A stretch of 64,000 nucleotides of DNA. Origin: Haloarcula japonica DSM 6131. GTDB lineage: Archaea > Halobacteriota > Halobacteria > Halobacteriales > Haloarculaceae. The first letter of the stretch is position 1. The number at the start of each line of letters is the position of its first letter. Shown here in pieces: positions 22,684 to 27,399 of the stretch. Below the pieces are notes generated by a model. The model was given only the letters and a program-made list of their open reading frames with translations. It was not told where the DNA came from and did no database searches. Location of the stretch: positions 1 through 64,000 of the forward strand of contig NZ_AOLY01000007.1 of the NCBI RefSeq assembly GCF_000336635.1, written 5' to 3'. A program made the position numbers and the translations under genes.

Positions 22684-22746
22684 ATGAGTCAGATGATTGT
22701 CTATCTTGGTCCGACACCGGGCCAGCATCTATCGAGGTGGCTATGA
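22684..22746 (+). CDS. Candidate 20-residue upstream ORF coupled to the HprK-like gene
   Basis: A frame reading MSQMIVYLGPTPGQHLSRWL starts at ATG 22684. Its TGA overlaps the ATG of the next gene in an ATGA arrangement (22743-22746). A clear TATA box, CATATATA at 22643-22650, lies upstream at a distance that would give a leader of roughly 10-15 bases. It could be a translational-coupling or attenuation leader, or a very small peptide. The length is too short for coding statistics, so the call rests on promoter position and overlap. Confidence 0.4.
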   Translation: MSQMIVYLGPTPGQHLSRWL

Positions 22747-23879
22747 ACCAACGTTCGTATGACTTCTTCGGCGACGTTGTCGTAACGGTTCTCGGGGACG
22801 GCGGGCGGACGAGCCGGCAATACCGGAGGATGTATGACCAGTTCGAGACCGATACACCTGCGAACGACCCAGATATCGTCATCGAGGAGACGACCGAGGC
22901 GGTCCACGCGGAGGTCGTTCTCGGTAGCCCCGACGACCACTATGCCTGGACCGGTGACGAGTTCGTCATCCGAAACGGGGCGGACTTCATGGCGGTCTCG
23001 CCGGGCTGGCAGCATATCCGAGTGACGCGCGGCTTTGAGCCGTTTTACTCCATCTATCCGGTCGAATTCCACATTCGACAGCAGCGGGCTGCGCGACAGC
23101 AGGCCCTGATACACGCCTCGGGCGTGCGACTCGACGGCCGGACGACGCTGTTCCCGGCCTGGCGTGGAGCCGGGAAGACCAATACCCTGCTGTCACTGTT
23201 GCGCGAGGGCGCGGACTTCCTCTCCGATGATCGACTCTGGGTCGGCGCGGATGGCACGGCTGTCGGCTACCCGCTCGGTGTGAACCTCCAACCGTTCAAT
23301 ATCGAGTCGTTCCCCGAAATAAAACGACAGCATGACACAGAGCGGGACCGGCTGCGTAGTGAGCTTCACGGAGTTATCGATGAGCGAGTCGATAGAGCCG
23401 GTTCGTTTCCGGAAACAGTGCTCAACTTCCTGAACGAGACGTTTCTCGGCGACGATAGCCGGAGTTTCACGAGTATCTCGGACCTGTATCCACGTTCGGA
23501 ACATGTCGACAAATCGACAGTCGACAACGTCGTGTTCCTCCAGGCCACGCCAAACGCCGACACAGTCACTGTGGAAGGCATCTCGACCGACACCGCGATG
23601 TCGGCCACGTCGTCGATCTGTAACTTCGAATGGGACGGACGGCTCAGGGAATACTTCCACGCCTACGATTCACTCGTTGACGACGGCTCGATGGTCGCCA
23701 CCCTCGATGCGGTCGTCGAACAGGAGCGGGCGACGTTCCGGGAACTGTTCGACGATGTCGCGACCTACCGCGCACACATCCCCCGAAAACGGAACTGGGG
23801 CGACCACAACCTCGACACCGCCATCGTCGAGGCCGTCAAATCGCTTGACTCGCCGCGCGTGATCAAGGCGATGGATTGA
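22743..23879 (+). CDS. HPr kinase-like P-loop protein
   Basis: The 378-residue protein carries a P-loop FPAWRGAGKTNTLLSLL (about 136-152) followed by FLSDDRLWV, the layout of HPr kinase/phosphorylase C-terminal domains and related HprK-like kinases. RRMYDQFE and the beta-rich first 110 residues resemble the N-terminal part seen in HprK-related proteins from peptide-maturation and capsule clusters. No HPr or PTS gene is nearby, so the phosphorylated target is unknown. Proteins of this group may modify a peptide or small molecule. The start could also be a GTG two codons earlier. No close functional partner is visible apart from the tiny upstream ORF. Confidence 0.65.
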   Translation: MNQRSYDFFGDVVVTVLGDGGRTSRQYRRMYDQFETDTPANDPDIVIEETTEAVHAEVVLGSPDDHYAWTGDEFVIRNGADFMAVSPGWQHIRVTRGFEPFYSIYPVEFHIRQQRAARQQALIHASGVRLDGRTTLFPAWRGAGKTNTLLSLLREGADFLSDDRLWVGADGTAVGYPLGVNLQPFNIESFPEIKRQHDTERDRLRSELHGVIDERVDRAGSFPETVLNFLNETFLGDDSRSFTSISDLYPRSEHVDKSTVDNVVFLQATPNADTVTVEGISTDTAMSATSSICNFEWDGRLREYFHAYDSLVDDGSMVATLDAVVEQERATFRELFDDVATYRAHIPRKRNWGDHNLDTAIVEAVKSLDSPRVIKAMD

Positions 23880-24223
23880 GCCGAGTATCGTATATGCGTC
23901 GTGAAAACGGAATGAAACCGCGATCCCAGCCGAGAGTGACAGTGAGCCCTTAGCTATGCGTCGGTGGATAGTTGCGACAAAGAGTCCCTATCGCGAGAGC
24001 GCCGAAAAACAACAGCATACTCGCAGTAACCGAGCAATAACTAATCGCCGTCCTGCGAACGGGTCTGTGTTCGAGAGCCTAGAAATGTATCGACCATATG
24101 CCGAGACTGCCGGCCGATGGCAGACGCGACGGTGCCATCGTAGCGGCCGAGACAACGGATGGACCACAGGGAAGCGGCCGGGTTGTGCCCTGACTCATCG
24201 CAGGATCTGTGCCGGGTGTGAGT
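23880..24223. other. Non-coding gap before the dockerin gene
   Basis: This 344-base stretch shows no convincing gene. A frame at about 23956-24234 has unlikely basic composition. No clear TATA box was found at the usual distance from the ATG at 24224, so the promoter of the dockerin/cohesin pair may lie further upstream here. Confidence 0.4.
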
Positions 24224-26071
24224 ATGGACAGTAGCGACAGGTTCGAACGGTCGGCCACTACGACAAGACGAAGGGTGCTCAAAGCTGCTGGTGCTGGCGT
24301 CGGCCTCACTGCGCTGGGAACCACTGCCAGTACCGGCCAGCAGACGGACTACTGGACGGTCGTTGCACTGCCGGACACACAAGTGTACGCCAAAGAGGGG
24401 ACGCCCTACGGCAAGGACCAGACGCAGTGGATCGCCGACAACGCGGACGCCGAAAACATCGCGTTCGTCAGCCACGAAGGCGATGTGGTCGACCACGGTG
24501 ACGACGACGCGGAGTGGCAGTATATGGATGAGGCCATGTCCACGCTCGACGGGGTGGTCCCCTACGCCACCGTGACTGGCAACCACGACTACGCGACGCT
24601 GTGGGATCGGAATTCCTCTGTTGCCAACTACAAGGAGTACTTCGGCCTCTCGCGGTACGACGGCCGGGACTGGTTCGGCGGGGCGGGCCCGACCAACGGT
24701 GATGAAGGTCGGGATAACCTCAGCACCTATCAGCTGTTTTCGGCCGGCGGCTACGACTTCCTCCATCTCGCCCTGGAGTGGGAGCCGCCGGGAACGGTGG
24801 ACGACCCGTCGACAACGTTGGGGTGGGCACAGAGCGTTCTCGACCGGTATCCGAACCGGGCGACGATACTCACGACGCACTCGTATCTCCGTGACGAGCC
24901 CCAGCAACGGACACGGGAATTGCAGGAGGCCAGCAAGGTCGGGAATACGGGCCGGACCGTCTGGGAGAACCTCGTCTCACCGAACGGCCAGATATTCATG
25001 GTTCTCTGTGGTCACTGGCACGATGGGACGGGCAAGAGCGGCGGGGAGGCCCATCAGGTGTCGACGAACGATGCAGGCTCGTCAGTGTACGAGCTACTTG
25101 CGAACTACCAGTTCCGAGACGACGGCGGGCACGGCCTGCTTCGCCGCATCGAGTTCCGTCCGGGAGACGGTTCTGACGCGCCGGACCGGATCCAGATCCG
25201 GACGTACTCGCCGAGTACCGACGAGGAACAGACCGACAGCGACTCGCAGTTCGGGTTCGATATCGACTTTGACGCCCGATTCGGGTCGTCGCCCGGGACG
25301 CCGGAACCAACGGAAACACCCGAGACGCCAGACGGACCGACGGCGACGTTCCAGCAGCGGACGGATGGCTACAGCGGCACGACTGACACGATGATACGCG
25401 CTGCTGAGCCGGAGACGAGCTACGGCACCGCTGAGACACTATCTATCGGTGGCAGTGACCCGGAGGGGTCGGGCAGTAGCACACAAGCACTCCTCCGGTT
25501 CGATGGTATCATCGGTACAGACAGCGGGCAGATACCGCCCGGGTCGGACGTGAAACAGGCCACTGTAGCGCTTGAAACGTCGGGCGAGGGGGATGGCGCG
25601 GCGGTCCATCGACTGCGAACGGACTGGAGCGCCGATTCGACGTGGGCGTCGCTGGACGGCGGCGTCCAGACGGACGGCTCCCAGGCCGTCACCGATGCGG
25701 TCACACGAACCGGCGCGGTAGAGACAGGTAAGAGTTCGATTGATGTGACGGCGAGCGTGGAAGCATGGGCAAACGGCGCACAGAACGCCGGGTGGGTATT
25801 TCGCCCGCTCGGGAACGACGGCTGGGATATCCAGAGTGCCGACAGCGACGTACCACCGACCCTGACTGTCAGCTACACCCCTGGAGAAACCGTGGCCGGC
25901 GACGCCGACGGCGACGGTGACGTCGACACTGATGATGTAGACCGGATCCAGCGGTCAGTTGCCGGCGAGGACGGTAACATCGACCGGGACGCAGCAGACG
26001 TCGATGGCGACGGTGACGTCGACATCGGTGATGCTGTTTCCGCCCGGAACCTGGCGGAGGGGAATCAATGA
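24224..26071 (+). CDS. Secreted metallophosphoesterase with C-terminal dockerin
   Basis: The 615-residue modular enzyme starts with a Tat signal (TTTRRRVLKAAGAGVGLTAL, residues 12-31). A calcineurin-like phosphoesterase domain follows (about 45-300) with ALPDTQVY, HEGDVVDHG, TGNHDY, TTHSYL and CGHWHDG, the full set of metal-ligand motifs. A Thr/Pro linker (PEPTETPETPDGP) leads to a DNRLRE-like beta domain (about 375-545). A type I dockerin ends the protein: two calcium loops DADGDGDVDTDDV and DVDGDGDVDIGDA. Phosphoesters, nucleotides or phosphodiesters are possible substrates. Its stop overlaps the start of a cohesin gene (ATGA), so the two products are probably made together and bind each other outside the cell. 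Confidence 0.9.
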   Translation: MDSSDRFERSATTTRRRVLKAAGAGVGLTALGTTASTGQQTDYWTVVALPDTQVYAKEGTPYGKDQTQWIADNADAENIAFVSHEGDVVDHGDDDAEWQYMDEAMSTLDGVVPYATVTGNHDYATLWDRNSSVANYKEYFGLSRYDGRDWFGGAGPTNGDEGRDNLSTYQLFSAGGYDFLHLALEWEPPGTVDDPSTTLGWAQSVLDRYPNRATILTTHSYLRDEPQQRTRELQEASKVGNTGRTVWENLVSPNGQIFMVLCGHWHDGTGKSGGEAHQVSTNDAGSSVYELLANYQFRDDGGHGLLRRIEFRPGDGSDAPDRIQIRTYSPSTDEEQTDSDSQFGFDIDFDARFGSSPGTPEPTETPETPDGPTATFQQRTDGYSGTTDTMIRAAEPETSYGTAETLSIGGSDPEGSGSSTQALLRFDGIIGTDSGQIPPGSDVKQATVALETSGEGDGAAVHRLRTDWSADSTWASLDGGVQTDGSQAVTDAVTRTGAVETGKSSIDVTASVEAWANGAQNAGWVFRPLGNDGWDIQSADSDVPPTLTVSYTPGETVAGDADGDGDVDTDDVDRIQRSVAGEDGNIDRDAADVDGDGDVDIGDAVSARNLAEGNQ

Positions 26072-27399
26072 GGGCGGGCCGAACGATTGTTGTCGCCGTC
26101 GCCCTGACGGTCGTAGTCGGGACGCTCCCGATGGCGGTCGCCGCACTGGCACCGGGGTCTGCGAGCACGATCTCGGTCGGTACCACCGTCTCAGAAACGT
26201 CGGGCGACGGGGTCGCCGTTGCCCCCGGTGAAACGGTCACTGTACAGGTCTGGACCAACGCAACAGCGGTGCGTGGCTACCAGACCAATATCACGTTCGA
26301 CCCTACCATCGCGGATATCGACAGCGTTGCCGGCAGCGACGACTTCGACGACCCCGTTACAAACGTGAACAACGAGGCCGGCTGGGTTGCGTTCAATCAG
26401 CTCCGGCCCGGCGAGACGGACGATCCTGTTCTCGCCGAAATCACGCTCACAGTCCCCGAAAATGCGTCTGGGTCCACACAGCTCACCTTCGTCGGCGCGG
26501 ACACGAAACTGTCCGACAGCGACGGCGAGACTGTCACACCCGAAGCCTACAACAGTATTGAGCTACGCGTCGACACCGGTTCGTCGACTCCAACAGACAC
26601 CACGACACCGTCGGGAACGGACACGCCAACGGCTACGGAAACAGCAACCGGTACTGCTGGCGGAGCAGGAAACGATACTGACAGCTCTGATGGCAGCAGC
26701 GACGGCGGTAACAACGATACTGATGATGATAGCAACGCTAACGACGACGATGATAACAACGGTGGCGGGGGCGGTGGGGGTGGAGGCGGTGCTATCTCCC
26801 CACCTGAACCCTCGTTTTCGATCATAAACACGTCGCTCAACAGAACATCGGCCGCGCCTGGACAGTCGGTCATGGTGTCCGGAACCATCGAGAATGATGG
26901 CGACGATGACGGGACGTTCGAGGCGCGTGTCTACGATAACGGAACGGTGACGGGGGCGAATGCAAGCCTCGAAATCCCGGAGGGAGAACAGCGTCAGGTG
27001 AACCTCACAGTCCGGTTCAACTCATCCGGTGTCCACGCCGTGAAACTCAACACAACCAATGTGGGTAACGTGACTGTTCGAGCGGCCAACGGCACCACGA
27101 ATGGGACGATGAACGCAACTAGAAACGAGACAACAAATGGGACAGCAACTGCGACTGTCTCACCGACATCAGATTCGACAGCGTCGGCCACTGTACCCGA
27201 TACTGGGACGGCCACTGCATCGCAGACTACTGCACAGACAACAGCATCGGACACTGGGACCGGCACGACAACGTCCGTCTCAGAGACGCGGGCGACAACA
27301 ACGGACGGCTCCGGCCCCGGATTCAGTCTCGCCGCTGTTGTCGTCTCGCTATCGCTGTTGCTTGGCTGGCTCGGCTATCGCCGGGACGGGGTACAGTGA
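26068..27399 (+). CDS. Surface-anchored cohesin-domain protein with PGF-CTERM
   Basis: The 443-residue protein has a Sec-type signal peptide (about 1-26) and then a cohesin-like beta domain (about 32-170; ETVTVQVWTNATAVRGYQTN, ITFDPTIADI, VAFNQLRPGETDDPVLAEI). After a Thr-rich linker and a low-complexity Asp/Asn/Ser/Gly tract including ten glycines comes a CARDB-like domain (about 250-340). A Thr-rich, N-glycosylation-rich stalk leads to PGF followed by a hydrophobic helix and arginines at the C-terminus. That is a PGF-CTERM signal recognised by archaeosortase A. It overlaps the dockerin enzyme gene by four bases. The obvious model is a cell-surface receptor that docks the enzyme through cohesin-dockerin binding. 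Confidence 0.85.
   Translation: MRAGRTIVVAVALTVVVGTLPMAVAALAPGSASTISVGTTVSETSGDGVAVAPGETVTVQVWTNATAVRGYQTNITFDPTIADIDSVAGSDDFDDPVTNVNNEAGWVAFNQLRPGETDDPVLAEITLTVPENASGSTQLTFVGADTKLSDSDGETVTPEAYNSIELRVDTGSSTPTDTTTPSGTDTPTATETATGTAGGAGNDTDSSDGSSDGGNNDTDDDSNANDDDDNNGGGGGGGGGGAISPPEPSFSIINTSLNRTSAAPGQSVMVSGTIENDGDDDGTFEARVYDNGTVTGANASLEIPEGEQRQVNLTVRFNSSGVHAVKLNTTNVGNVTVRAANGTTNGTMNATRNETTNGTATATVSPTSDSTASATVPDTGTATASQTTAQTTASDTGTGTTTSVSETRATTTDGSGPGFSLAAVVVSLSLLLGWLGYRRDGVQ

Follow-up and report, generated by a model that had tools for sequence, protein, structure and literature searches.

A pair of overlapping genes on contig NZ_AOLY01000007.1 of Haloarcula japonica DSM 6131 probably encodes a dedicated two-part surface-display module, in which an exported metallophosphoesterase (MPE) ending in a dockerin would be held by the membrane-anchored cohesin protein of the adjacent gene. 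The window analyzed comprises positions 1 to 64,000 of this contig, and its genome is labeled G000 here; the MPE gene is also found in Har. sebkhae, argentinensis, and salina. The two open reading frames (ORFs), referred to as gene 1 and gene 2, share four bases (Table 1), as a first-pass annotation made from the sequence had described. That annotation proposed that a phosphatase is docked to the cell envelope, a proposal to which the distribution of the two modules among related genomes lends strong comparative support.

Distribution of Dockerin and Cohesin Genes

A search for the MPE domain across 392 Halobacteriales genomes yielded 27 genes in 24 genomes. All 15 genes whose products carry a C-terminal dockerin are followed on the same strand by a gene with a PF00963 cohesin domain, at a spacing of −4 nt in 11 pairs, −1 nt in two, and +2 and +6 nt in the remaining two. 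The partner in genome G261 scored 24.0 bits against a cut-off of 24.1 in hmmscan and exceeded the cut-off in the genome search. None of the 12 dockerin-less MPE genes has an adjacent cohesin gene; eight of these neighborhoods were read directly, and the four others belong to genomes that gave no Pfam cohesin match. The nine genomes in which every MPE is dockerin-less contain no Pfam cohesin anywhere. Genomes G261 and G294 each encode one MPE of either sort, and the cohesin gene lies beside the dockerin-bearing copy only. The MPE of G074, a sister of the docked G271, is without both dockerin and cohesin and looks to have lost them jointly. Across species, dockerin and cohesin are thus present or absent jointly, which suggests a two-part fixing of exported enzymes to the archaeal surface. 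The only Dockerin_1 match and the only Pfam cohesin match of G000 are the adjacent genes 1 and 2, a result with which subfamily profiles agree and which indicates that the adjacency is more than chance.

Dockerin and cohesin are also kept in class B (G002 and G010), G331, and G281, where the DNRLRE and CARDB domains found in the window proteins are both absent. The class B MPEs (L064 and L068) have altered metal-site motifs (GDHD/GDQD, GHSW) and retain the dockerin and the adjacent cohesin. Between Haloarcula species, dN/dS is 0.13 for the MPE domain, 0.155 for the dockerin, 0.20 for DNRLRE, 0.22 for CARDB, 0.32 for the cohesin, and 0.27 and 0.50 for the two stalks; dockerin and cohesin are therefore under purifying selection.

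Architecture of the Two Proteins

Profile searches bore out the proposed MPE and DNRLRE-like domains in gene 1, whose product carries a putative Tat signal (Table 1). The twin-arginine (RR) motif is invariant in 15/15 homologues, and the corresponding TIGR01409 score falls slightly under threshold (16.1 versus 16.7 bits). The calcineurin-type metal motifs are complete, except that D-x-Q replaces D-x-H, a feature invariant in the family (15 homologues). For the C-terminal two-loop type I dockerin, the score of the window protein stays under the threshold, which several orthologues exceed (for example, 34.4 bits in G387 and 45.3 bits in G261). The family profile retrieves solved dockerins, namely CelS (4.4e-6) and XynY (1ohz_B, 0.0028), and the calcium-ligand positions of both loops are invariant or almost so in 15 homologues.

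The cohesin-like domain attributed to gene 2 was confirmed by a profile match well over the cut-off, and an FNQxR motif is invariant within the MPE-linked cohesin subfamily. An AlphaFold (AF2) model of the domain, built from a 4-row alignment, was of moderate confidence (pLDDT 67, pTM 0.65). The best 13 Foldseek matches to this model are all cohesins, mostly out of cohesin-dockerin complexes; upon realignment, the best 24 are cohesins with Z scores of 11.2 to 8.8, dockerin-bound ones among them, and the noncellulosomal cohesin of Archaeoglobus (2xdh) gives 8.5. The modeled N-terminal domain is thus a cohesin β sandwich (jelly roll). The p53-type β sandwiches further down the Foldseek list were discarded, as this is a common fold. 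Querying the PDB with this one cohesin sequence gave low-complexity matches only, although profile and fold searches did reach cohesins. In the remainder of gene 2, which includes low-complexity stalks, the CARDB-like domain is weakly matched, and two orthologues pass the cut-off (4.5e-7 and 5.5e-7) that the window protein misses. The C terminus resembles PGF-CTERM by eye, and the Pfam PGF-CTERM model reported no match to it. The same model matches one partner of the PhoX phosphatases described below (3.7e-7).

Table 1. Features of the Locus, with Positions in the Window
Feature	Position	Strand	Details
HprK-related kinase-like gene	22737..23879	+	380 aa; near-constant MPE neighbor; NCBIfam HprK_rel_B E 9.7e-7
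Gene 1	24224..26071	+	615 aa; Tat-type MPE, DNRLRE/CBM96 domain, C-terminal dockerin
Twin-arginine motif TRRRVL	24263..24280	+	RR at residues 15-16; TIGR01409 E 0.011
Metallophosphoesterase domain, PDTQ type	24350..25279	+	D-x-Q, GDVVD, GNHD, TTH, GHWH; PF00149 E 1.9e-8
DNRLRE/CBM96 domain	25358..25876	+	NF033679 E 1.3e-16; PF24517 E 8.4e-9
Two-loop type I-like dockerin (DADGDGDVDTDD ... DVDGDGDVDIGD)	25889..26059	+	PF00404 E 0.003
ATGA overlap, 4 nt	26068..26071	+	Gene 1 stop shared with gene 2 start
Gene 2	26068..27399	+	443 aa; surface protein: cohesin, stalk, CARDB, stalk, C-terminal anchor
Cohesin domain	26164..26577	+	PF00963 E 9.4e-11; 42.5 bits versus cut-off 24.1
Acidic/Thr/Gly-rich stalk	26578..26805	+	From sequence; dN/dS as in text
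CARDB-like domain	26806..27078	+	PF07705 E 0.001, under cut-off
C-terminal anchor, PGF-CTERM-like	27310..27396	+	GPGF, hydrophobic helix, YRR

The domains, the gene overlap, and the co-occurrence of dockerin with an adjacent cohesin are established from sequence. Together they suggest the following sequence of events, in which export routes, anchoring, binding, calcium dependence, and stoichiometry are inferred. The MPE would fold in the cytoplasm and leave by the Tat route, having no anchor of its own. The translationally coupled adjacent gene would yield a Sec-exported protein whose C terminus holds to the cytoplasmic membrane or S-layer, with the cohesin domain placed at the outer end of its stalk. 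In the saline medium outside, the enzyme's dockerin, loaded with calcium, would bind this cohesin and fix the enzyme on the cell surface, at an enzyme-to-anchor ratio of about 1:1. Once docked, the enzyme would most likely hydrolyze phosphoesters at the cell surface, whether to supply phosphorus for uptake or to act on a surface polymer.

PhoX and Other Cargo

The first-pass annotation regarded the pair as a distinct two-gene system. It is not an isolated case: the layout recurs with PhoX, and nearly all of these MPEs have a third, kinase-like gene beside them. In Haloarcula and its relatives, 17 of the 19 dockerin-bearing PhoX genes are followed by a gene for a small cohesin-like surface protein, at about 40 nt where the spacing was measured, as against none of the four dockerin-less PhoX paralogues examined. 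The two exceptions, in G054 and G123, contain an internal cohesin-like domain ahead of the dockerin and have no separate cohesin. The PhoX partners are matched to the MPE-type cohesins with a profile-profile probability of 90% and are best described, from these profiles, as a diverged cohesin subtype. G000 has a PhoX pair of this kind too, split by a contig break, with PhoX on C35 (L170) and the cohesin at the start of C36 (L169:178-930); the truncated PhoX ORF terminates in CLLYTSLS, reminiscent of a Nextera adapter where the contig stops. In the PhoX-dockerin proteins L071, L078, L168, and L160, a cohesin-like domain closely akin to that of the partner (profile-profile 99.7%) lies right before the dockerin, so that head-to-tail chaining or self-docking is conceivable.

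Cargo and partner divide the labor in these sets. Cargo proteins of both the MPE and PhoX type carry an RR motif but lack a hydrophobic anchor at the C terminus. Conversely, every MPE or PhoX partner checked has a hydrophobic C terminus with a basic end, and the cohesin partners are without an RR motif, with weak exceptions in G281 and in the GH3 partner of G015.

The same gene order is found, in one or a few instances each, with SBP_bac_5 cargo in G038 and G057 (lipobox present, giant cohesin proteins), with GH3 cargo in G015 (a degenerate dockerin, recognized by eye only), and with subtilase-like cargo in G063 (by eye). The layout is thus shared by at least two families of phosphatase and probably by other cargo as well, the assignments beyond PhoX being less secure. 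At L075 and L076, the gene of a solute-binding protein with lipobox and dockerin precedes genes for giant proteins (1065–2107 aa) of cohesin-dockerin and cohesin type.

Docking versus Other Roles of the Dockerin

Several observations weigh against a dedicated docking module. On the MPE tree, the dockerin/cohesin trait changes about 2 times (bootstrap 2–4), so that a Fisher test of dockerin against adjacent cohesin among MPEs (6e-8, kinship ignored) overstates the independence of the cases. The Dockerin_1 (PF00404) score of gene 1 is 18.1 bits, below the curated cut-off of 22.9, and the PhoX partners score from 1e-4 to no match against Pfam cohesin. The dN/dS of the cohesin is no lower than that of the first stalk. 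Furthermore, many haloarchaeal dockerins come from genomes in which no cohesin was detected, and there is a separate haloarchaeal group of PF00963 proteins in genomes without a dockerin match. Since each module is found in genomes in which the other was not detected, neither dockerin nor cohesin alone implies docking. The PF00963 matches in G081, G091, G106, G107, G119, G129, G135, G136, and G143 were considered as further pairs and rejected, there being no dockerin nearby or genome-wide. Small haloarchaeal PF00963 surface proteins with an RGPW or RGPF-like motif (L009, L010, L012, L014–L017, and L020) are encoded in genomes that gave no dockerin match, and several of their genes adjoin one for a lipobox-bearing lipoprotein.

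The dockerins without a detected cohesin would also be expected if the module bound carbohydrate or some other extracellular ligand and the cohesin protein were an unrelated operon neighbor. Haloarchaeal dockerins have in fact been described as substrate binding (PMC10963439; PMC13260240). Such a role is nonetheless improbable here, because the presence of a cohesin gene among the MPEs tracks the dockerin and not the enzyme, the same layout recurs with PhoX, and most members already have a module for polymer binding in their DNRLRE/CBM96 domain. It is far less credible still that the pair is decayed or nonfunctional baggage. The altered metal sites of the class B MPEs could be taken as decay, but the motifs are intact in the window protein and most homologues, and dN/dS is low in MPE, dockerin, and cohesin. 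Docking of the enzyme by its neighbor is thus the reading preferred here.

A Kinase-Like Neighbor and the Task of the Enzyme

The gene upstream of the pair encodes a protein that resembles HprK-related kinases in its P-loop region only (28.2 bits against a full-length cut-off of 200). Homologues, one of them a fragment, were found in 14 of 43 genomes tested, always adjoining the MPE, in upstream, downstream, or convergent position. Among dockerin-clade genomes, 14/16 have it, counting G074. It is absent from the tested Haloarcula without this MPE and from the class B pairs. As it lies beside the MPE in all 14 cases, even in G074, where dockerin and cohesin are both missing, the gene appears to be tied to the enzyme and not the anchor. 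Peptides serve as substrates of HprK-like kinases in lasso-type pathways (PMC13381572), which makes a kinase-phosphoesterase relation possible.

Two tasks, both compatible with docking, may be considered for the MPE. Phosphorus scavenging by an ectophosphatase that uses nucleotides, DNA, or organic phosphate as substrate is a reasonable candidate, though short of an even chance. In its favor, the second docked cargo is an alkaline phosphatase, PhoX, and a distant MPE relative in G365 lies beside PhoX and PhoD genes. That relative, however, is 30% identical and undocked; moreover, no uptake genes were seen beside the pair, and scavenging leaves the kinase neighbor unexplained. The association of kinase and MPE in varied gene orders would also be accommodated if the kinase phosphorylated a peptide, protein, or glycan destined for export, from which the docked MPE removed or trimmed the phosphate at the surface. 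The lasso-pathway precedent is in line with this, as are the WecB, DegT, GT2, and Gfo/Idh genes near the class B loci and G281. Such a writer/eraser system is rather unlikely all the same, given the confinement of the kinase similarity to the P loop, the absence of the kinase from the class B pairs, and the lack of any identified substrate or precursor gene. The scavenging of phosphate from nucleotides or DNA suggested by the first-pass annotation finds no direct support; a surface polymer is equally allowed as substrate by the CBM96/DNRLRE domain, the kinase neighbor, and the presence of glycan genes at certain related loci. A broader scheme, in which haloarchaea hang Tat enzymes on Sec anchors by means of a whole family of cohesin-dockerin pairs, each dedicated and orthogonal to the others, with the MPE serving a kinase-phosphoesterase system on an exported phosphorylated substrate, is speculative and would be less likely again.

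Gene Boundaries

A longer form of gene 1 could start at a GTG at 24209; the ATG at 24224 is conserved in seven species and is for this reason the preferred start. A 92-aa ORF at 23956–24234 was rejected as a gene, its product being basic and the frame overlapping and without support. Scans for sigma-70 promoters and terminators gave nothing usable, archaeal promoters being outside the coverage of those models.

Relation to Known Cohesin-Dockerin Systems

An adjacent cohesin-dockerin gene pair is known from Archaeoglobus fulgidus (AF2375/AF2376). Like the window pair, it is archaeal and noncellulosomal, lies in adjacent genes, and shares the cohesin fold. The haloarchaeal pair differs in that the dockerin is carried by a Tat-type phosphoesterase, the cohesin by a C-terminally anchored stalk, the genes overlap in an ATGA, and the phosphatase cargo is recurrent. 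Anaerobic methanotrophic archaea (ANME) have many dockerin and cohesin proteins (PMC9012536; PMC5244752), including dockerin-bearing solute-binding proteins as in G038 and G057, but in large sets with multicohesin scaffoldins, in contrast to the single cohesin gene right behind a single enzyme gene seen here. Binding between archaeal cohesin and dockerin modules is mentioned in PMC9012536 as a result reported elsewhere, and the role of these modules outside cellulosomes has been called unknown (PMC5244752). The pairing, put forward in the first-pass annotation as an undescribed mechanism, is consequently new in use and not in kind, as the Archaeoglobus and ANME pairs are known. No description of a haloarchaeal cohesin partner for dockerins was found in the open-access literature, nor has two-part surface fixing of exported enzymes been described there so far for haloarchaea.

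The likeness to PhoX alkaline phosphatases (PF05787) lies in the Tat-type export signal and, in the Haloarcula forms, the dockerin and downstream cohesin gene; the catalytic family is a different one, and the cohesin partner is of the diverged subtype. Because the unit is simple, with one enzyme and one anchor, and occurs in culturable genera, it allows a noncellulosomal role of cohesin and dockerin to be tested directly. If correct, docking would explain how folded Tat cargo is fixed to the archaeal surface without an anchor of its own, and the two modules might be used for surface display as a pair stable in salt.

With bacterial cellulosomes (type I; anchoring scaffoldins such as OlpA), the window pair shares an enzyme-borne dockerin, a surface-anchored cohesin, and the cohesin fold. 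It has neither a multicohesin scaffold nor a cellulase, and its predicted anchor is a haloarchaeal membrane anchor rather than S-layer homology (SLH) domains or sortase attachment. Cellulosome membership was rejected, since the single cohesin is the only Pfam match of the genome and the dockerin cargo in G000 consists of phosphatases. A larger repertoire is present in G036, a 2.7-Mb haloarchaeal genome with 41 dockerin matches and two Pfam cohesins, one of them within a protein that has both cohesin and dockerin; this set is possibly a multienzyme system.

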